This document shows positions 30,970 through 40,253 of a stretch of DNA of 40,253 nucleotides, piece by piece. A program made the position numbers and the translations under genes. The stretch spans positions 1 to 40,253 of the forward strand of contig CAIWXX010000042.1 in NCBI GenBank assembly GCA_903916735.1, in the 5' to 3' direction. Positions within the stretch are counted from its first letter, which is position 1. Every line of letters begins with the position of its first letter. Source of the stretch: an uncultured Acidobacteriota bacterium. GTDB lineage: Bacteria; Acidobacteriota; CAIWXX01. The notes under the pieces were generated by a model that saw only the letters and a list, made by a program, of their open reading frames with translations, was not told the DNA's origin and did not search any database.

Positions 30970-31160
30970 TAGTTCTGTTGTCCCCATATTACTACAGTTG
31001 TAGAGTTTTCGGTATCTGGTTGGAAAAACAAACCCCTATAGCCCCCTGTAGCCGGCGGGTAAATGGGTACGTTTAGCATGGCGTTTATAGGTTCAGTATA
31101 TTTGAAAAGGCAATCTACTTGAAACTCGGTTCGTTCACGGTAAAATTGAAAGTTATCGTT

Positions 31161-31189
31161 GCGGTCAGCTTAGCCGCCGTCCGTTAGCT
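31161..31189 (+). repeat. Right half of an integron-type attC site (R' core GTTAGCT)
   Basis: The sequence GGTCAGCTTAGCCGCCGTCC followed by GTTAGCT (31183-31189) matches the right half of an attC site: an L'-like box GTCAGCTT and the GTTRRRY-type crossover core. It is complementary to the left half found at 31649-31674 on the far side of the GNAT gene. In an integrated cassette this is where the cassette's first bases (TTAGCT) begin. Confidence 0.55.
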
Positions 31190-31221
31190 GGCGCGAACAA
31201 AGCAACTAAAGAGAAATCCAA

Positions 31222-31671
31222 ATGACTAAACAATTGTTAAATACTATTCAGTTCAAAGAGCCTCTTCCAAATATTATTGATTATTGGAATCTATTTAATA
31301 CTACTGGATGGAATGTTGAATATAATTTTACGACTGCTGATCTGGAAAAAGCTATTAAGAACAGTTGGTATTCGTTATCGGTATTTAATTCTGAAAAGTT
31401 AATAGGTTTTGGCAGGGTGATAGCCGATGGTATTCATCATGCTTTGATTGTTGACCTGATTGTCCATCCGGATTATCAAGGCAAAGGAATCGGTTCTATG
31501 CTTTTAGATAGATTGGTCAAGAAATGCGAAGAAAATAAGATAAGGGATATTCAGTTGTTTGCGGCTTCGGATAAATATGAGTTCTATGAGAAACATAATT
31601 TTGAAAAACGACCACCAAATGCACCTGGAATGCAATATAAAACGCGCCAGCTAACCAGGCGCTCAAGCTGA
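31222..31671 (+). CDS. GNAT-family N-acetyltransferase (cassette-borne)
   Basis: This 149-aa protein has the GNAT acetyl-CoA-binding motif A, LIVHPDYQGKGIGSMLLDRL (Q/R-x-x-G-x-G/A), followed by motif B with FYEKHNF near the C-terminus. The substrate is unknown; close-type proteins acetylate small molecules or proteins. The gene is visibly more AT-rich than its neighbours, starts 27 nt after a cassette-type core site and ends with its TGA inside an attC half, which is typical of integron cassette genes. The last ten residues (QLTRRSS region) are encoded by the attC itself. GAGAAATCC precedes the ATG. Confidence 0.85.
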   Translation: MTKQLLNTIQFKEPLPNIIDYWNLFNTTGWNVEYNFTTADLEKAIKNSWYSLSVFNSEKLIGFGRVIADGIHHALIVDLIVHPDYQGKGIGSMLLDRLVKKCEENKIRDIQLFAASDKYEFYEKHNFEKRPPNAPGMQYKTRQLTRRSS

Positions 31672-31674
31672 CGG
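31649..31674 (+). repeat. Left half of an integron-type attC site (R'' core AGCTAAC)
   Basis: AGCTAAC (31649-31655, RYYYAAC-type) followed by CAGGCGCTCAAGCTGACGG matches the left half of attC sites, where the L'' box has the form GCTCAAGC-x-GACG. AGCTAAC is the exact complement of the core GTTAGCT at 31183-31189, and the 13-bp segment 31643-31655 is an exact inverted copy of 31183-31195. No right half follows before the next gene at 31747, so the site is truncated on this side. Confidence 0.6.
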
Positions 31675-31746
31675 AATGAGCTCACTGCAAAATTCATAGC
31701 GAAGATAGGTGCATTACAAATTTAAAATTATCAGACGGAAGATGAA

Positions 31747-32286
31747 ATGAATACTCAAGTTCTAGTGGCGTACGCCACAAAACATGGTGCAACAGCAGAG
31801 ATTGCAGAAAAAATTGGCGAAGTGCTTCGGCAAGCGGGCATTCATACCGACGTGCTGCCTATGAACCGCATCAACAACCTGCACTCCTATAAAGCAGTTA
31901 TTTTGGGCAGTGCGGTTTATATCGGACGATGGCGTAAAGAGGCGGCGAAATTCTTGAAAGCCAACGAGGAGGTACTGGCAGAGCAATTGGTGTGGCTGTT
32001 TTCAAGCGGGCCTACGGGCAAGAGGAATCCGGTGGAATTACTGAAAGGCTGGTACTTCCCCCCCGCACTGCAGCCAATCGCTGACCGCATCCAGCCACAG
32101 GGCATTGCAGTCTTTCATGGAGTAGTTGATGTGAAGAAGTCGAGCTTCATTGAAAAATGGATGATCAACAAGGTCAAAGCGCCTCTCGGTGACTTCCGTG
32201 ATTGGGAAGCCATTTCTTCATGGGCTGCGGTTATCGCCAATGTATTGATAGAAAAGAGTCGGGCGCCAGGAACGCAATCAAAATGA
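31747..32286 (+). CDS. Flavodoxin-domain protein, HemG-like
   Basis: The 179-aa protein begins MNTQVLVAYATKHGATAEIA, a flavodoxin-type FMN phosphate-binding loop (T-x-H-G-x-T). It continues with AVILGSAVYIGRWRKEA, the second FMN loop of menaquinone-dependent protoporphyrinogen oxidase (HemG) and relatives. LFSSGPTGKRN follows. The length fits HemG. Because no haem genes are near, a general flavodoxin-like redox role is as likely as protoporphyrinogen oxidation. It lies about 75 bp after the attC half-site, in the accessory region. Confidence 0.82.
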   Translation: MNTQVLVAYATKHGATAEIAEKIGEVLRQAGIHTDVLPMNRINNLHSYKAVILGSAVYIGRWRKEAAKFLKANEEVLAEQLVWLFSSGPTGKRNPVELLKGWYFPPALQPIADRIQPQGIAVFHGVVDVKKSSFIEKWMINKVKAPLGDFRDWEAISSWAAVIANVLIEKSRAPGTQSK

Positions 32287-32343
32287 GAGCATCTTAAAGG
32301 AAGCAAGAAACAGAAATGAGAAACACGAAAGGATGTTTTACCA

Positions 32344-32760
32344 ATGACATGTGCTATGAAAGATTCTAAACTCAAGGTACATGAAGTGCTGTCTGCAATA
32401 AACCAGGCATGGCGAAGCAATACTCCTCTCGGGATGTCGCAGTACTTGCATCCTGATATTGTCATGAAATACCCTGGATTCTCCGGTGAAGTAGCAGGGC
32501 GTGATGCACTTCTCGCAAGTTTTGTTGAATTCTGTACAAACGCTAAAATTCTCGAGTATCAAGAGAGCAACGAACAAATTAATGTTGTTGGAAATTGTGC
32601 TGTGGCAAGTTTTCAATTCGAGATGTTGTATGAACGAACGAAATATCAGGAACGATCAAAGGGACGAGACCTTTGGGTGTTTCAATGCATTTCTGATACG
32701 TGGGTTGCAGTATGGCGAACGATGATGGAATTAGAGGAAGTGCGAGAGACTCGTAAGTAA
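32344..32760 (+). CDS. NTF2-like (SnoaL/DUF4440-type) small protein
   Basis: The 138-aa protein shows the NTF2-like cone fold pattern: an N-terminal helix (VHEVLSAINQAWRSNTPLGM), YLHPDIVMKYPGFSGEVAGR with the usual A-G-R-DALLA segment, then strands VVGNCAVASFQFEML and a terminal GRDLWVFQCISDTWVAVWRT, given here in two blocks. Members range from ketosteroid isomerase-like enzymes to binding proteins, and the pocket residues do not identify one here. The start at 32344 is supported by GAAAGGATG upstream. The function is unknown. Confidence 0.75.
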   Translation: MTCAMKDSKLKVHEVLSAINQAWRSNTPLGMSQYLHPDIVMKYPGFSGEVAGRDALLASFVEFCTNAKILEYQESNEQINVVGNCAVASFQFEMLYERTKYQERSKGRDLWVFQCISDTWVAVWRTMMELEEVRETRK

Positions 32761-32850
32761 GACTGCGCTGCCTCATCCGCCCATCAATCTTTGCTTGTCC
32801 AGAAGAATGCATCACAACCGGAGGCCGCTTGCACAAGGAGTAATATCATT

Positions 32851-33294
32851 ATGCAAATTGAGAAGGAATTCATAAAAGTAGTTTCTATTTGTTTGCCAAA
32901 GCATTTGAACGTATCATCCATGCGGTTCATCAACTCGATGACAAGCAAATATGGCATCGTCCATCAAGCAATTCAAATAGTGTCGGCATAATTCTCCAGC
33001 ATGTATCGGGAAATCTTAATCAATGGGTTTGTTCTGCTATTGGCGGCGAAGATTTCGAGCGAAATAGACCACAAGAGTTTAGAGATCAAAACATTATCCC
33101 CAAAAAAGATCTTATTCAAAAAATACATGCGTTGGATAAGAAAATTCAAGATGTGCTTTTACAGGTTACATAAGAATCCTTGCTTTCAAATTGCCGCATT
33201 CAAGGATTCGATGAAACAGTTATGTCCGCATTAATCGTAACGTTGACACATTTAGAACTGCATAGCGGTCAAATCTCATTCCTTGCAAACAGTG
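32851..33294 (+). pseudogene. DinB-family (DUF1572) protein, broken
   Basis: The frame from ATG 32851 (MQIEKEFIKVVSICL) must shift by one base near 32885-32895 to continue as AKAFERIIHAVHQLDDKQIW, LQHVSGNLNQWV and GGEDFERNRPQEF, the typical DUF1572/DinB four-helix metalloprotein sequence. A TAA at 33171-33173 then interrupts the same frame before ESLLSNCRIQGFDETVMSAL and LTHLELHSGQISFL. The C-terminus runs into the 3' end of the opposite SBBP gene, so it is also truncated. AAGGAG precedes the ATG. The gene is at least doubly broken unless these are sequencing errors. Confidence 0.75.
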
Positions 33295-33316: not shown

Positions 33317-33548
33317 CTCATCACTTCACCTGGAACTGGAACGTATTGCTAGTCTGGCCGTTGACCTCGACGTAGACACCGACTATTCCCTTCTTGACTT
33401 TGGGGATTGTGACCTTGAGTGATGTCGTTTTGGCTTTGTTGATGGATTTCACTTTCTTCGTGCCGAAATACACAATATTTTTCTTTTTGTCGGTCGAAAA
33501 GCCGGTGCTGTTGATGGTAGCGCTCGAGCCCGGCTTGCTGGTCTTGGA
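33317..33548 (-). repeat. Direct repeat (copy 1) covering a shared C-terminal domain
   Basis: About 232 bp here are nearly identical, without gaps, to 35082-35313 (offset 1765 bp). They encode the last 75 residues of each of two tandem propeller genes. Confidence 0.85.
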
Positions 33549-34970
33549 TGTCATGCTGGTAATGGATGGGCCTGATCCCTGCAGCTTCGCCACAACGGCG
33601 TCAAATTCTGACGTGTAGGGCCTGATGGGCGAGCCCCAGGTGGCATAGCTGGAGAAGGTCACATAGACGTTTCCACTGTCATCGATAGCGACGCACCCAT
33701 CTTCGTCATAGTCTCCTCCGCCGAGGAAGGTGTTCCACAGAAGCCACCCATCACTGTTGAGCTTCGCCGCAAAGATGTCATCATTAGCCGCGTACGGTCT
33801 AATGGGCGAGCCCCAGGTGGCACTGCTGCTGCCGGTTAAATAGATATTTCCACTGCCATCGACAGCGACACTTCCGCTCACGTCGCCGCCTCCTCCCCCG
33901 AGAAAGGTGTTCCATTGAAGCGCCCCATTGGTGTCGAGTTTCGCGACGTAGCCGTCGTTAAGCGCCGTGTATGGCCTCCGCGTCTGCGACCCGCCCCAGG
34001 TGCCGCTACTCCAGCCGCCGACATACACGTCTCCGCTGCCACCAACGGCGATGCCTTCGCCAAAATCATGATCGTCTCCGCCGAGGAATGTGTTCCAGAG
34101 AAGCGACCCGTCGCTATTGAGTTTCGCGACGTATGTGTCCTCGCCCCCTGTGTAGGGCCTCAGCGGCGATCCCCAAGTTCGATCGCCAGTACCTGCAACG
34201 AAGACATGCTGACTGCCATCGATGGCGACCCTATTGTCCGCATCCTGACCGACTCCCAGGAATGTGTTCCAAAGAAGCGACCCGTTGGCGTCGAGCTTCG
34301 CCACGAAGGCGTTATAATTTCCGAACGTCCATGGGCTGATGGGTGAGCCCCAGTAGCGTTGGCTGCTGCCACCAACGTAAACATTTCCGACATTATCGAC
34401 GGCGACGCTGAGGCCGTCATCATCCACGTTGGGTGCGCCGAGGAACGTGTTCCAGAGAAGTGACCCATTGCGGTCGAGCTTCGCCACGAAGCCGTCGCTT
34501 CCTCCTGCGTCGAACGGCCTGACCGGTGAGCCCCAGGTCGCACCGCTTTCACCGGTGACATAGACATTTCCGTTGCTATCGACGGCTACAGCCGCGCCAA
34601 CGACCCACTCTGCCCCGCCGAGAAAGGTGTTCCAGAGAAGTGACCCGTTGCTGTCGAGTTTGGCCACGAAGGCGTCACAGTAACTCACGAATGGCATCAG
34701 TGGCGAACCCCAGCTAGCCGCGCTCATACCCGTGACATAGATGTTTCCGTCGCTGTCGACGGCGATGCCCAAGCCCTTGTCACCTCCTTGTGTGCCGAGG
34801 AAAGTGTTCCAGACAAGCCCGCCTTGTGCTGGAAGGCTGTCACCATGAATTTCAATACTCCGGCTCAGGCGAGACCGACCCTGAGCCTCGGCATTCTCCG
34901 CGCTCACTGGTAGAGCTATGCAAGCCAAACATGCGAAGCCCGCCAATGTTCCGACCATCCGATATCTCAT
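33321..34970 (-). CDS. Secreted SBBP beta-propeller protein with Ig-like IPT/TIG-type C-terminus
   Basis: The 549-aa protein has a signal peptide (GTLAGFACLACIALPVSA) and seven SBBP repeats of about 55 residues, each with WNTFLGG, G-x-x-YVTG and ATWGSP-type segments (for example GNVYVTGESGATWGSP and GNIYLTGSSSATWGSP). They form one propeller. The C-terminal 80 residues (SKPGSSATI, STDKKKNIVYFGTKK, VTIPKVKKGIVGVYV) look like an IPT/TIG Ig fold and are almost the same in the next gene upstream. Such a shared tail may be a surface-binding or sorting module. AAGGAGAA precedes the ATG. It overlaps the broken DinB gene at its 3' end. Confidence 0.88.
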   Translation of the reverse strand: MRYRMVGTLAGFACLACIALPVSAENAEAQGRSRLSRSIEIHGDSLPAQGGLVWNTFLGTQGGDKGLGIAVDSDGNIYVTGMSAASWGSPLMPFVSYCDAFVAKLDSNGSLLWNTFLGGAEWVVGAAVAVDSNGNVYVTGESGATWGSPVRPFDAGGSDGFVAKLDRNGSLLWNTFLGAPNVDDDGLSVAVDNVGNVYVGGSSQRYWGSPISPWTFGNYNAFVAKLDANGSLLWNTFLGVGQDADNRVAIDGSQHVFVAGTGDRTWGSPLRPYTGGEDTYVAKLNSDGSLLWNTFLGGDDHDFGEGIAVGGSGDVYVGGWSSGTWGGSQTRRPYTALNDGYVAKLDTNGALQWNTFLGGGGGDVSGSVAVDGSGNIYLTGSSSATWGSPIRPYAANDDIFAAKLNSDGWLLWNTFLGGGDYDEDGCVAIDDSGNVYVTFSSYATWGSPIRPYTSEFDAVVAKLQGSGPSITSMTSKTSKPGSSATINSTGFSTDKKKNIVYFGTKKVKSINKAKTTSLKVTIPKVKKGIVGVYVEVNGQTSNTFQFQVK

Positions 34971-35081
34971 TGCTTTTCTCCTTTGAAAATAGCCGTATGC
35001 GCGCCGGCAGTCATCGCAACTCCAAATGTGAACCTTTCAAGAAGCGATTGATGCATTTTTGACCGCCCTCTCGCCTCAAGG

Positions 35082-35313
35082 CTCATCACTTCACCTGGAA
35101 CTGGATCGTGTTGCTCGTCTGGCCGTTGACCACGACGTAGACGCCGACAGTTCCCTTTTTGACTTTGGGGATTGTGACCTTGAGTGATGTTGCTTTCGCT
35201 TTGTTGATGGATTTCACTTTCTTCGTGCCGAAATACACAATATCTTTCTTTTTGTCCGTCGAAAAGCCGGTGACGTTGATGGTAGCGCTTGAGCCCGGCT
35301 TGCCGGTCTTGGA
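35082..35313 (-). repeat. Direct repeat (copy 2) covering a shared C-terminal domain
   Basis: This is the partner of 33317-33548 at a constant offset of 1765 bp. Differences are scattered single bases, most altering single residues of the shared tail. Confidence 0.85.
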
Positions 35314-36203
35314 TTTGATGGAACTGATGACTGGCCCTTCGGGTCCACTGCTGCAGAGGACAGTCGTGGTGGCTGTCGAGCTCGTGACGGAGGCACTCGT
35401 TGCGATTCCAGCGACCGCCGTAGGCATGACAGCTGCTGTAGAGATTGCGGGAACAGCGGTGGAGACACTCGTAGAGGCGATCGAGCTCAAGACGAGGTTG
35501 GCGCACGAAGGGTCTATGTCTCCGGTTGATGATAGTTTGAGACACCATACGTCGCTGTTGCCGGCGCCGAAGGAGTTGGTGTTTCCGGCGAGGATGTAGC
35601 CCCCATCACTCGTCGCCTGCACAGCCCAGGCATTGTCATTGTCAGCACTTCCGTACGTCTTCTGCCACAAGACGTTGCCCGAGGCGTCGAGCTTCACGCA
35701 CCATGCGTCGCTCTGGCAACTTCCAGCGAGGATGTAGCCCCCGTCACTTGTCGCTTGCACGCTTTCCGCAATGTCAGCGGAAGCACCCCCGTAGGTTTTC
35801 TGCCACAGGACATTGCCCGAGGCGTCGAGCTTCACGCACCATGCGTCGTAGTTGCCGGCGCCGAAGGAGTTGGTGCCTCCGGCGAGGATATAGCCCCCGT
35901 CACTCGTCGCCTGCACGCTTTCAGCATAGTCATCGGAAGCACCCCGTAGGTTTTCTGCCACAGGACGTTGCCGGAGGAGTCGAGCTTCACGCACCATGCG
36001 TCGGAGCCGCCGGCGCCGAAGGAGTTCGTTACCCCCGCGAGGATGTAGCCTCCGTCACTTGTCCGCTGGATCGACCTGGTGCCATCATATGACGGGCCAC
36101 CGATTGTCCGTGCCCATTGCGTGCCTGCATCGGCGAAATGGACCATGAATGTGCAAAATAGCAGACTCATGAGAATGCGCGCCGTTCTGTGGCTTGTGTT
36201 CAT
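35086..36203 (-). pseudogene. Secreted propeller protein with TIG-type tail, split by a one-base frameshift
   Basis: From ATG 36203 (after AGGAG) the protein has a signal peptide (RILMSLLFCTFMVHFADAG) and repeats such as SIQRTSDGGYILAGVTNSFG and AWCVKLDSSGNVLWQKTYG. The frame is lost near 35945 and continues one frame over as DYAESVQATSDGGYILAGGT, three more repeats, a Ser/Thr/Val-rich linker and the shared TIG-type tail. The plus strand at the break has four Cs where the parallel repeat at 35785-35790 has five, so one base in a G run of the coding strand is missing. This could be real decay, phase variation or a sequencing error. Without the slip the product would be about 370 aa. Confidence 0.8.
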
Positions 36204-36292
36204 GATTGATTCTCCTTCATTGAGGCGGGTCTTCACGGCCACTCGTCCCAGAATGTTAATGCATCGCGCTTCCATGTGAGATTCCATCTTGT

Positions 36293-36433: not shown

Positions 36434-37123
36434 CTACTCCTCTACCAGGCGATGCTGCAGCGCCTTGGCGACGGCTTCGTACTTTGTGTGAACTTGCAGT
36501 TTCTCGTAGACGTGACGCACGTGGTATGAGATCGTATTGACGCTCACGCCCAGCGCCGCAGCCGCCGTCTTGTAATTATGCCCGTCAACGAGCATCTTGA
36601 GGAGCCGGGTTTCGTGAGGTGTGAGCGCGAAGGCCGCCGGCGGGCGTGTCCGCACATTGCGGAACAGCGACACGACACGGCGAGCGACCTCTGGAGTCAT
36701 CGGCGAACCGCCGTCGACGGCTTCGCGTAAGCTATCGATGATGCGGGCGGGCGGTGTCTTCTTGAGCAAATAGCCGCATGCGCCGGCGCACAGCGCATCG
36801 AAGATACGCTCGTCATCGTCATAGACCGTGAGCATCAACATCAGGAGACTCGGATGTTGTTCTTTCAAAATGCGGATGCCCTCGATTCCTGACATACCTG
36901 GCAGCCCGATGTCGACGAGAGCGATGTGGGGCGCACAACGGCCGATTCCATCCAACGCCTCCTCCATCGAACCAAAATTGCCGACGCAACGGAAACCAAC
37001 GGTCCCGTTGATCAGAATCCCGAGCCCCTCGCTGATCTCACGCTTGTCCTCGATAATGGCAACCCTAATGATGCCGGTTTCTCCACTCTCAGCGGAGGCT
37101 GATGTCATCGCCGTTTCAGGCAC
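36434..37123 (-). CDS. NarL/FixJ-type response regulator (LuxR HTH)
   Basis: The 229-aa protein has a receiver domain (about 18-135) with the acidic pair in AIIEDKREI, the phosphoacceptor D in ALVDIGLPGMSG, and the T and K of LMLTVYDDDE and YLLKKTPP. A LuxR-type helix-turn-helix follows (about 165-225: LTPHETRLLKMLVDGHNYKT, VSVNTISYHVRHVYEKLQV). Start is GTG 37123, 7 nt after GGGAGA. The C-terminal part of a sensor kinase is 98 bp upstream in the same direction, so this was a two-component pair. Its promoter carries a palindromic box also found before the propeller gene, suggesting autoregulation and a target. Confidence 0.92.
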   Translation of the reverse strand: MPETAMTSASAESGETGIIRVAIIEDKREISEGLGILINGTVGFRCVGNFGSMEEALDGIGRCAPHIALVDIGLPGMSGIEGIRILKEQHPSLLMLMLTVYDDDERIFDALCAGACGYLLKKTPPARIIDSLREAVDGGSPMTPEVARRVVSLFRNVRTRPPAAFALTPHETRLLKMLVDGHNYKTAAAALGVSVNTISYHVRHVYEKLQVHTKYEAVAKALQHRLVEE

Positions 37124-37221: not shown

Positions 37222-37494
37222 TCATTCGCGTCCCCATCGCATTGCACGACGGTGCGCCAGCGGCACTCTCAAGGAAACGGCCGTGCCACTACCCGGTCCT
37301 GAGACGACTTCCAATGTGCCTCCGATACTCCCGACACGCATGGCCATGCTTCCCAGGCCGTGGCCGCTGCTCTTCATTGCTGTGTCGAATCCTCTCCCGT
37401 TGTCGGCCAGCTTCATCTCGACCAACCCGCTCGCAATCCGCAGCGAGATGTGAGCCTCGGTGCAGTCCGAGTGCCGTGCGATGTCAGCCGTCAC
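37222..37494 (-). pseudogene. Histidine kinase, C-terminal ATPase fragment truncated by a transposon
   Basis: The translation from 37494 (GTG) gives IARHSDCTEAHISLRIASGL, then LADNGRGFD (G1 box), GHGLGSMAMRVGSIGGTLEV (G2 and following) and GSGTAVSLRVPL. This is the ATP-binding domain of a NarX/DegS-type sensor histidine kinase. The N-box is incomplete, a stop codon sits three codons upstream of the GTG, and the dimerisation and sensor domains are missing. The break coincides with the putative transposon end at 37499. The remaining domain is too small to act as a kinase for the adjacent response regulator. Confidence 0.8.
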
Positions 37495-37616
37495 GCTTTG
37501 TTAGGGGCCTGTTTTCACGATCGAGTTAGCTGTTGAATATGAGAATCAATGCCTGATTGTCGAATTGATTAGCGGGCAGTAGTTGGAAGCGGGAGGCGTG
37601 TGTTGCGAGGCGAGAC

Positions 37617-37649
37617 GGGGGAGCGCGCGAGGCACCGCGCGCGATCCCC
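37617..37649 (-). terminator. GC-rich hairpin downstream of the transposon operon
   Basis: GGGG-GA-GCGCGCG pairs with CGCGCGC-GAT-CCCC around an AGGCAC loop, about 13 bp after the stop of the small four-cysteine gene. It could end the operon's transcript or protect it. No T run follows, so the call is weak. Confidence 0.35.
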
Positions 37650-37662
37650 GTGATGAAGGTGA

Positions 37663-38097
37663 TTACCGGATGCGATGGAAGCGGACTTCCGGCCAAGAGC
37701 CGTGGTCGAGGACGGTGAGTTTGAGGCGCCAGCGGCAGAATTCCTCGCCATCATGGCGAGCTTCGGATTCAAGGTCGAGAATGTTGTTGGCGGAAGGGAT
37801 GTTGAGGTGGAGGATGTGAACAAGGGCGCCATCTCGGAGGTAAATACGAAGCTGGAGTCGGCATCGTGAGTGGAGGCATTCGACGCAGGGGAATCCGTTC
37901 ATGTTTCGAGTTCCATCTGGCGAGGAGCAGACGATCGAGCTGTTGTTGAAGCGGGTACGAAGCGCGATCATTTTGGTGACGTGACCTTCGAGCGAGTCAA
38001 GCGGCTCGGCTGAGTTTCTGGGGAGGAATCCGAGGCGAGTGACGCGGACGGGGATGGTAACCGGTTGCAAGAACACGAGCTGTAGAGAGGAGCTCAT
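37663..38097 (-). CDS. Small four-cysteine protein of the transposition operon, unknown function
   Basis: This 144-aa protein starts with ATG 38097, which overlaps the ATPase stop as ATGA, so its translation is coupled to the transposition genes. Cysteines C57, C71, C74 and C79 sit in the arrangement C-x13-C-x2-C-x4-C (VCSSPDG, then FPCVECLHSRC), a likely zinc site. It is flanked by beta-strand-rich sequence (LQLVFLQPVTIPVRV before; RLQLRIYL, LVHILHLNIPS and WRLKLTVLDHG after). The layout recalls zinc-containing OB-fold nucleic-acid-binding proteins of mobile elements, which is only my inference. A DNA-binding or target-selection role would fit the context; no named family is claimed. Confidence 0.65.
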   Translation of the reverse strand: MSSSLQLVFLQPVTIPVRVTRLGFLPRNSAEPLDSLEGHVTKMIALRTRFNNSSIVCSSPDGTRNMNGFPCVECLHSRCRLQLRIYLRDGALVHILHLNIPSANNILDLESEARHDGEEFCRWRLKLTVLDHGSWPEVRFHRIR

Positions 38098-38916
38098 AGG
38101 TCGACCTCATCGAGCGACTCAGTGACAAGCTCGGCATCGATGTCCTTTTTGTGCTGGTGGAGTGCCGCGAGGAGGGAGTGTTCGGCGATACGATCGACGA
38201 GACGAGGTACGCCGCGGGAGGCCTTGAAGATGGCCTCGACGGCATCGGGGAAGAAGAGTTTGGCGGTGCGACCGGCGGCTTCGAGCCGGTAGAGAATGTA
38301 CTGATCGACCTCATCCCGATCCCAGCCTTTGAGTCGGAGACGGATGGTGATTCTCTGTGCGAGGGCATCGTGGACGGCGAGGCGCAGAGTGGATTCGATT
38401 TGTTGATGACCAGCGAGGAGGAGCGTGAGATCGTCCCGGCGCATCGCCATCGAAATTGGTCATGATTCTAAGTTCCTCAAGCAGCTCGCCTCTGAGGAGG
38501 TGAGCTTCGTCGATGACGAGCACAGGATGTATTTTATTCTGACGGGAGAGCTTGAGGATTCTGTCTTTGATCTGCCGGCCGCAATCGGCGCGGCGGTGGG
38601 TTGGTGTGATGTCGAATCCATAGGCGATGAGGCGAAGCAGGTCGGTGGCACAGCAGGTGGTGTGTGCGATGTAGGAGAGGCAGTGGGTGTTTTTAGAGAG
38701 GCCCGATATGAAGGCGCGGAGCAGCGTTGACTTGCCAGTTCCCGGCGCCCCGGTGAGCAGGCCGATGCCTCGGCGGTCGACGAGGTAGCGGAGCTTATCG
38801 AGGCCTGTGGTGAGGCTCGACGTTTGGAGATACTCTTCGGTGGCGGCCGGTTTGAGGAACGGGAGGGTCTTCAATCCGAAGAAGGCTCTGAGCATGGTTT
38901 CAATTCTCTCACTCAT
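38094..38916 (-). pseudogene. AAA ATPase of the transposon (TnsC/TniB/ExeA-like), frameshifted
   Basis: From ATG 38916, overlapping the integrase stop by 8 nt and preceded by AGGAGG, the protein reads MLRAFFGLKTLPFLKPAAT, Walker A LLTGAPGTGKSTLL, Walker B HPVLVIDEAHLL and LRIMTNFDG. There the frame is lost: about one extra base near 38434-38442 moves the rest (LTLLLAGHQQIESTLRLAVH, KGWDRDEVDQYIL, GVPRLVDRIAEHSLLAA) into another frame that ends at 38094. Repaired, it would be about 273 aa, similar to ExeA/TniB-type AAA proteins that regulate target choice by DDE transposases. In the sequence as given, the full product cannot be made. Confidence 0.82.
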
Positions 38917-40225
38917 GGGAGGCCTCCTTCTGGAACGTCTGTGCCTGATGTTGGAGGCTTCTGAGTGTCTGCGATGTCGGAGTTGATTCGGTATCGGGTA
39001 ATCGTCTGGCACGGCGATTTCCGGCGAGGTCCACCGGGAAGGCATCAATTCTTTCACCGCGATCCGAGAAGACCTGGATGCGGCGGAGGTCGAATGGGTC
39101 GTAGCGAACGGTGACTTTCTGCCCGATGAAGTGCGGGCCGGGCTCGAATGCTTTTCCGTCCAACACGATCGTGCCGTCTTTGCGGACGCGGCGAGTCACC
39201 TCATCAAGGAAGAGTAGATCCAGGTCCACGTCGGACGGGATGGGGCGAATGCCGCCGCTCTTGCGAACCCATCGGTCCAGAGGCGTTTCCCCCTCGATCC
39301 CTCGATGCGGCCGGATGTGGTACTCGCCTTCGACGAAGGCGAAGAGAAGTCGATTGAGCGCATCAATGGATTCGAGACGGTTGCAATCGATGCGCGAGAG
39401 GAAGCAGCGACGGACCGTTCCGAAGAAGCGTTCGAGCTTGGCGCGACCCTGCGGTCTGTAGGGGCGCGTGTGGATCAGCTGAATGCCGAGCCGCGCCGCC
39501 AGGTGGAGCAACGACCGGCTCTTAAATATTCTGCCCTGGTCCATGTATAAGCGCCTGGGTAAACCACGCTTCAAGAAAGCCTGTTTGAGCGCGTCTTTGA
39601 GCGTTATCAGATGCTGCTCGAAGTAGAACTGTGCATGGGCGATAAGACGCGTTGCGTCATCGAGGATTGCGAACAAGTAGGTGCGACGCCGCGTCCCCTT
39701 TCTGGTCGGCAGATCCGGCCCATACATGATGTCCATCTGCCAGCAATCCCCGGCCAGGTCGAACTCGAAGGCACGGTGATCGCGGCTGATGATCGACGCA
39801 CCCGCTCGCAACGCCAATCCATGCGCCTTCACGAATCGGTAGAGTGTGGAAAGCGAAGGAACCCGCTCCTTGAAGGCGGGATCAGCACGAAGCTCCTTCA
39901 GAATGCCGGGACCATCCAGTCCTGTTTCTCCTTGCGCGAGCTCTTCAATGCGGCTCGCCGTTTCCTCGTCAATCACTCGGCTGGATCCTCGATCACGGCG
40001 AGCTTGCGGCACGAGCGCATCCAACCCGCCGCTCCGGTAGGCATAGAGCCAGTGCTCAATTGCCCCTTGACTGTACTGCACCGACCCTCGTCGCGGATGT
40101 TCCCAGGTGCGCGAACTCAGCTTCTGGAGCATCCGGTCGAGCGTTCCTTTCGGCTCCCTCTCCAGATTCAGAAGCGGTGCGATCACTTGGAATCGAAAAA
40201 GCGAAACGTCTTCGGGTTTGGTCAT
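38909..40225 (-). CDS. DDE integrase/transposase with Mu-type C-terminal domain
   Basis: This 438-aa protein is a retroviral-integrase-fold transposase. An N-terminal HTH part (about 1-150: GAIEHWLYAYRSGGLDALVP, LSTLYRFVKAHGL) is followed by the catalytic core with D in CWQMDIMYG, D in RLYMDQGRIF and E in GRAKLERFFG. The last two are separated by exactly 35 residues (DD35E). A beta-barrel Mu-transposase-C-like region follows (HFIGQKVTVRYDPFDLRRIQ), as in MuA, TnsB, TniA and IstA. All catalytic residues are intact. ATG 40225 follows AAAGGAG. It heads an operon with an AAA ATPase and a small cysteine protein. Confidence 0.9.
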   Translation of the reverse strand: MTKPEDVSLFRFQVIAPLLNLEREPKGTLDRMLQKLSSRTWEHPRRGSVQYSQGAIEHWLYAYRSGGLDALVPQARRDRGSSRVIDEETASRIEELAQGETGLDGPGILKELRADPAFKERVPSLSTLYRFVKAHGLALRAGASIISRDHRAFEFDLAGDCWQMDIMYGPDLPTRKGTRRRTYLFAILDDATRLIAHAQFYFEQHLITLKDALKQAFLKRGLPRRLYMDQGRIFKSRSLLHLAARLGIQLIHTRPYRPQGRAKLERFFGTVRRCFLSRIDCNRLESIDALNRLLFAFVEGEYHIRPHRGIEGETPLDRWVRKSGGIRPIPSDVDLDLLFLDEVTRRVRKDGTIVLDGKAFEPGPHFIGQKVTVRYDPFDLRRIQVFSDRGERIDAFPVDLAGNRRARRLPDTESTPTSQTLRSLQHQAQTFQKEASHE

Positions 40226-40253
40226 TACGATTCTCCTTTCATTGGAGGAAGAA

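Follow-up and report, generated by a model that had tools for sequence, protein, structure and literature searches.

A Mu/Tn7-like transposition module whose exchangeable third gene may link it to DNA replication

For transposons built on a DDE transposase, the handover from transposase to the replication machinery is, to my knowledge, known in detail only for phage Mu, where it depends on host factors. In Tn7, replication forks are used for target selection, through the protein TnsE. Mu requires PriA and DnaT after strand transfer, both for replication and for the repair of insertions (PMC3325207). Among the entries of ISfinder, the large ISNCY elements ISArsp14 and ISBli29 carry passenger genes (PMC10045372), and these two may be relatives of the elements described here. 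No publication on the gene set reported below was found in the open-access literature searched.

The window (the whole stretch of DNA analyzed, 40,253 bp) is contig C42 of a 5.37 Mb assembly in 183 contigs, from an uncultured Acidobacteriota bacterium. Its last 2.7 kb form a module of three successively overlapping genes on the minus strand, ending at the contig end and encoding an integrase, an ATPase and a protein with four cysteines (hereafter referred to as the C4 protein). The features of this region are the following:

36434–37123: response regulator following the sensor-kinase fragment
37222..37500, minus strand: host flank, C-terminal HATPase part of a sensor kinase, frame broken at ~37501 (domain match)
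37510..37532, minus strand: provisional right end TGTTTTCACGATCGAGTTAGCTG (TGT at 37510), placed by comparison with relatives with mapped ends, all beginning TGT
37663..38097, minus strand: third gene, 144 aa, cysteines C57, C71, C74 and C79, predicted zinc/OB-fold protein of ssDNA-binding type (homology, models)
37861..37929, minus strand: stretch coding for C-x13-C-x2-C-x4-C, invariant in 7/7 family members (alignment)
38094..38916, minus strand: AAA ATPase (AAA_22, ExeA/MuB-like), split by a frameshift near 38437–38442 (domain and profile matches)
38909..40225, minus strand: DDE integrase/transposase, 438 aa, with HTH, rve and Mu-transpos_C, related to IS481 and TnsB (domain and homology matches)
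40226..40253, minus strand: the 28 bp between the integrase and the contig end, including a ribosome-binding site

A sequence-only reading of this DNA had proposed a three-gene transposition module beginning at 37499, and much of its description is borne out. The gene set is real, the ATPase start lies within the integrase end (8-nt overlap, 38909–38916), the third ORF starts over the ATPase stop with an ATGA overlap (37663–38097 against 38094–38916), and the third protein does contain the motif C-x13-C-x2-C-x4-C. The proposed range starts near a plausible right end, beside the histidine-kinase fragment, but lacks the left end: no partner end is present on the contig, whose assembled sequence stops at 40253. 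Only 28 bp separate this point from the start of the integrase, which makes the element incomplete. A DUF6431-type gene, found upstream in relatives, is absent from the assembled stretch, and a DUF6431 search of the whole genome was also empty. No second complete copy of the element was found in this genome, and no phage genes among the scanned ORFs of the window.

The sensor-kinase gene is apparently cut beside the element. An in-frame TAA (37501–37503) just precedes the first codon that can be read, which prevents an exact placement of the kinase/element junction and of the duplication. Further into the window, genes at positions 33321–36287 code for proteins with SBBP beta-propeller and IPT/TIG domains, apparently mutually related, and positions 31001–33000, which include a gene for a flavodoxin-type protein (31747–32286), have a G+C content of 41–45% against ~52% around them.

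The integrase matches the Pfam families rve (E 9.6e-15) and Mu-transpos_C (E 1.1e-12). Its D165/D229/E265 triad, with 35 residues between D229 and E265, is intact and invariant among relatives, in keeping with the earlier description of an intact DD35E integrase with a Mu-type C-terminal part. Against NF033577, the NCBIfam model for IS481, it scores 175.7 bits (E 1.4e-51), which does not reach the cut-off of 224 bits; this score, the ATPase partner and the Mu C-terminal domain led me to reject membership of IS481. PADLOC matches the integrase to TnsB (E 4e-10) and gives only generic P-loop matches for the ATPase. The nearest solved relatives are TnsB for the integrase (PDB 7svw, E 9e-6) and MuB, 'target DNA activator B', for a homologous ATPase (E 0.005); both matches are weak, and both agree with the Mu/Tn7-type DDE and AAA pair that had been recognized. 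The pair is taken to work like MuA/MuB and TnsB/TnsC.

What had been missed is that the ATPase gene is interrupted. Mapped against a profile of homologous ATPases, profile positions 3–158 fall in one frame (38437–38904) and positions 158–268 in another (38106–38438), without any gap in the DNA between both parts, and one surplus base in a GGG run near 38437–38442 (CCGGGACGAT) breaks the frame. This would be either a sequencing or assembly indel or the mark of a decayed copy, and given the frameshift the copy of the element in the window may be dead. Programmed frameshifting may also be considered; homologous ATPases are mostly single ORFs, and the shift site, CCG GGA C, is not known as a standard slippery site.

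For the third ORF, length alone is no proof of coding, as 236 of 2000 shuffles held an ORF of equal or greater length. Homologues that share its frame and location, together with a codon-position GC (0.61/0.43/0.69) close to that of the integrase (0.64/0.45/0.68), indicate that it is coding; homology and codon pattern thus rule out a chance ORF. Sequence searches find no relative of it in Pfam, NCBIfam, PHROG or the PDB, the last searched with C4 profiles, consistent with the earlier remark that the protein belongs to no recognized family, and on this basis it represents an undescribed family. No TniQ, TnsD or TnsE match was obtained in Pfam for the protein and its homologues, nor in NCBIfam for the window protein. 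A TniQ homologue was rejected for lack of similarity, as was a Tn7-like element with TniQ, there being no TniQ, and a defence gene for lack of any match.

Seven members of the C4 family were found, in Acidobacteriota, Eisenbacteria and Verrucomicrobiota, four of them (G222, G1137, G984, G1179) by the third-protein profile search alone. All seven share the four cysteines, R47, R84, S102 and F140. The gene lies directly behind the ATPase in six; around the seventh (G1179) the region has decayed, the nearest trace of the module being an integrase fragment at a distance of 2.1 kb. The G281 homologue (31% identity over 103 residues, pair E 6e-9) comes after an integrase with 58% identity and an unbroken ATPase gene; that of Candidatus Eisenbacteria (L035, 37–38% identity) lies behind a partly decayed, 59%-identical integrase and a truncated ATPase; and that of G222 adjoins a very divergent transposase (integrase-profile match only 9e-30). 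Three members come from the phylum to which the Verrucomicrobiota genome G405 belongs: G1137, with integrase, ATPase and C4 consecutive; G984, with the ATPase end immediately upstream of C4 at a contig edge; and G1179. The gene is rare, occurring in 3/396 genomes of the sample of its own phylum and in 1/47 and 3/388 of two other samples. Outside such modules, the genomes searched yielded no homologue, and none turned up in viral contigs, plasmids or phage collections.

AlphaFold2 models of the C4 protein were built on two-sequence alignments, with a pLDDT of 43.7 for the window protein and of 60.0 (pTM 0.51) for its closest homologue, from Eisenbacteria. The latter model has the strand order b-b-b-b-[C4 loop]-b-b-helix-b-b, and the order of strands and helix in both weak models (pLDDT 44 and 60) is compatible with an OB fold whose cysteines lie in a loop. 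In Foldseek, the better model matches phage proteins with E 1.6e-4 to 2e-3 and a probability of ~1.0, at a query-normalized TM-score of just 0.31–0.38. Further down, at E 0.01, is a T5-like D11; T5 D11 belongs to PHROG 1607 (E 8e-106), the family labelled 'single strand DNA binding protein'. No PDB structure matches at E ≤ 1e-3, and the non-significant matches include RPA (RPA-ssDNA) and other OB folds. These models provide a lead of medium weight, pointing to an OB-like fold that includes a zinc loop and resembles phage ssDNA-binding proteins; zinc binding and ssDNA binding are thus predicted properties of the C4 protein.

In order to place the third gene in context, integrase relatives were aligned from plasmids, from 45 genome contig loci and from a 395-genome phylum sample. 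The contig loci came from a scan with a three-sequence integrase alignment; a single integrase query had yielded none. Most relatives share one layout, with a zinc-ribbon DUF6431-like gene, the integrase, the ATPase and a third slot, often with a 4-nt ATGA overlap, and nearly all loci with a complete region downstream of the integrase have the AAA ATPase. The regular absence of the third gene from homologous integrase/ATPase pairs, which would have counted against the sequence-only reading, is half observed: in a tree of 62 integrases, 48 are followed by some third gene, the C4 gene being behind just 5, and 14 have none, some of these loci being short. The slot holds an AAA_25 helicase (RepA-like) in 19 modules, DnaA_N with AAA_25 in 1, C4 in 5, a RepB primase in 2, DUF669 in 1, DUF6618 in 3, small proteins ending in -PF in 12 and other small proteins in 5. 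Matches above the curated Pfam cut-offs were obtained for AAA_25 (5e-30), DnaA_N, RepB_primase N and C, DUF669 (9e-8) and one DUF6618, and the DUF669 protein also matches a PHROG SSB family (6.6e-8). Since mapping the slot labels on the tree takes 20 changes, against a minimum of 8, the contents have been exchanged, C4 alone accounting for at least 2 changes. The slot is therefore typical and its occupant exchangeable, and most identifiable occupants are replication or ssDNA proteins. As most relatives lack the C4 gene, an obligate third core subunit was rejected.

Several loci show individual arrangements. In L024 (3151–4398, genome G195) the slot protein is a DnaA N-terminal domain fused to an AAA_25 helicase domain; in L063, L056 and L067 (clostridial and spirochaete) a DUF6618-like protein of ~100 aa lies downstream of the ATPase; and a Streptomyces relative (L016, 5317–5595) has an additional 92-aa gene between integrase and ATPase.

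A -PF terminus (IDDPF, DEEIPF, DLPF and others) was found in 14 of 20 small slot proteins, counted with L104 and with two additional loci from Burkholderiales; among long background ORFs the figure is 4 of 1232. The -PF proteins are partly interrelated and so not independent, yet the tail occurs in several unrelated-looking proteins. The tip of bacterial SSB docks PriA. The SSB terminus is DDDIPF, and its tip docks partners such as RecG (PMC10164576).

Wherever ends could be mapped, the third slot is part of the mobile unit. Genome G795 has two copies, 99.2% identical (3778 and 3781 bp; L112 1946–5723 and L113 1928–5708), each with TGT ends and a RepB primase inside, flanked by the target-site duplications (TSDs) AGGAGGTG and GCTCA; this element is apparently recently mobile. 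An 84-aa third gene lies inside the element of L008 (TSD CTCCCG) and a -PF protein inside that of L019 (TSD CTTG), while the helicase of L039/L050 lies inside inverted repeats, with no TSD found. G674 has four copies without a third gene, of which three were delimited, each with 5-bp TSDs. Relatives with mapped ends have TGT...ACA ends and TSDs of 4–8 bp, mostly 5 or 6. A common target of related insertions does not emerge from the mapped TSDs (AGGAGGTG, GCTCA, ACAGG, CTCAT, AAAGC, GCAACT, CTCCCG), which come from few copies, none of them carrying C4. The C4-type elements have a provisional right end only (window 37510, TGTTTTCACGATCG), none being delimited at both ends, and membership of C4 in the element is deduced from the family.

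The best reading of these results is that the product of the third gene is no third core protein but a replaceable subunit at the interface to replication. For the window, I consider it about evenly balanced whether the locus is a (probably damaged) Mu/Tn7-like, IS481-related element whose slot holds an exchangeable accessory linking it to replication, here a zinc-OB C4 protein binding ssDNA. The broader proposal is put forward a little more tentatively: that a widespread Mu/Tn7-like group has a modular replication-interface slot, filled through repeated exchange by a helicase, a primase, an ssDNA-binding protein or a mimic of the SSB tail, with C4 as a new zinc-OB family. Under this proposal, transposase and ATPase would, as in Mu, connect the ends of the element with the target, and the accessory would bind to the forks or single-stranded gaps left at the joints of strand transfer, helping to recruit or protect the host replication and restart machinery that must fill or copy these joints. 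The slot product would most naturally act after strand transfer, and an element with its own helicase, primase, ssDNA-binding protein or SSB-like tail could ease the handover in diverse hosts. Gene order, coupling, homology, the invariant cysteines, the exchange of slot contents, the inclusion of the slot in mobile units and the replication nature of most identifiable occupants are observed; the link to replication, the fold, the binding of zinc and ssDNA and the step of action are inferred. Counting against the reading are the weakness of the models, with no PDB match at E ≤ 1e-3, the partial relatedness of the -PF proteins, the lack of a C4 element delimited at both ends, the possibility that this copy is dead, and the third gene being dispensable, as 14/62 related modules have none.

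The sequence-only reading had cast the third protein as a target selector or an end-binding factor. As an undescribed accessory protein it stands; as a fixed third subunit for either role it is not borne out, and neither role is now the first choice, the identifiable occupants being mostly replication or ssDNA proteins and a separate zinc-ribbon DUF6431-like protein, of end-binding type, being encoded upstream of the integrase in most relatives. A selector would act before strand transfer, like TnsE or TniQ, steering the ATPase to ssDNA, a fork or the replisome, in which case the replication-type domains would serve to direct insertion into DNA that is being replicated. This is the strongest of the alternatives, though I consider it rather unlikely: translation of the gene is coupled to that of the ATPase, which is the target-choice subunit in MuB, TnsC and IstB systems, slot proteins are of kinds that meet forks, and exchangeable selectors are familiar in Tn7-like elements, but there is no similarity to TniQ or TnsE, the few mapped insertions share no target (though none of these carries C4), and helicases and primases suit a role after insertion at least equally well. 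A protein bridging the transposase and the element ends, or a regulatory zinc protein, is far less probable. Four invariant cysteines would suit such a zinc- and nucleic-acid-binding protein; the transposase however has its own HTH, the DUF6431-like zinc-ribbon protein upstream in relatives is a better candidate, and the same slot elsewhere holds helicases and primases.

It is also possible, if improbable, that the slot is merely a tolerated cargo position, with genes that have no function in transposition. Contents that change so often (20 label changes against a minimum of 8) and the 14/62 modules without a third gene would agree with this, as would the large IS481-like elements with passenger genes recorded in ISfinder (PMC10045372). 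Cargo would not, however, be expected to be repeatedly of ssDNA or replication type, ATGA-coupled and provided with a recurrent -PF tail, nor would a passenger C4 gene be expected to have no homologue outside such modules in the genomes searched and in plasmid, phage and viral collections. If the replication-interface reading is correct, these elements carry their own exchangeable replication proteins, making the handover dissectable gene by gene, and coupling to replication would be a new axis along which DDE/AAA transposons diversify, beside the well-studied choice of target.

Compared with known proteins, the model of the C4 homologue matches phage proteins including a T5-like D11, and the zinc OB fold of RPA weakly, but the phage ssDNA-binding proteins are longer and show no sequence similarity to C4, which has its own loop spacing, C-x13-C-x2-C-x4/5-C. 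IS481 provides the closest transposase model, and the TGT...ACA ends of the relatives and TSDs of mostly 5–6 bp recall its 5'-TG...CA-3' ends and mostly 6-bp TSDs; the elements here differ in the sub-cut-off score, the Mu-type C-terminal domain, the ATPase partner, the upstream DUF6431 gene and the additional third slot. With Tn7, Tn5053 and CAST they share a Mu-type DDE transposase, an AAA ATPase and a variable accessory (TniQ or TnsE in those systems), as well as TSDs mostly of 5–6 bp, several of 5 bp. In contrast to those systems, there is no TniQ, TnsA or TnsE, the 438-aa transposase is nearer to IS481, relatives have an upstream zinc-ribbon gene, and the accessory is C4, a helicase, a primase or SSB-like. 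Phage Mu also combines an rve and Mu-transpos_C transposase with an ATPase, MuB, the nearest solved relative (weak) of the ATPase here. Mu uses the host PriA and DnaT, whereas the elements described here, of 3–4.5 kb and without phage genes, have a replication-type accessory of their own, and the dependence of Mu on restart (PMC3325207) suggests how useful such accessories could be.
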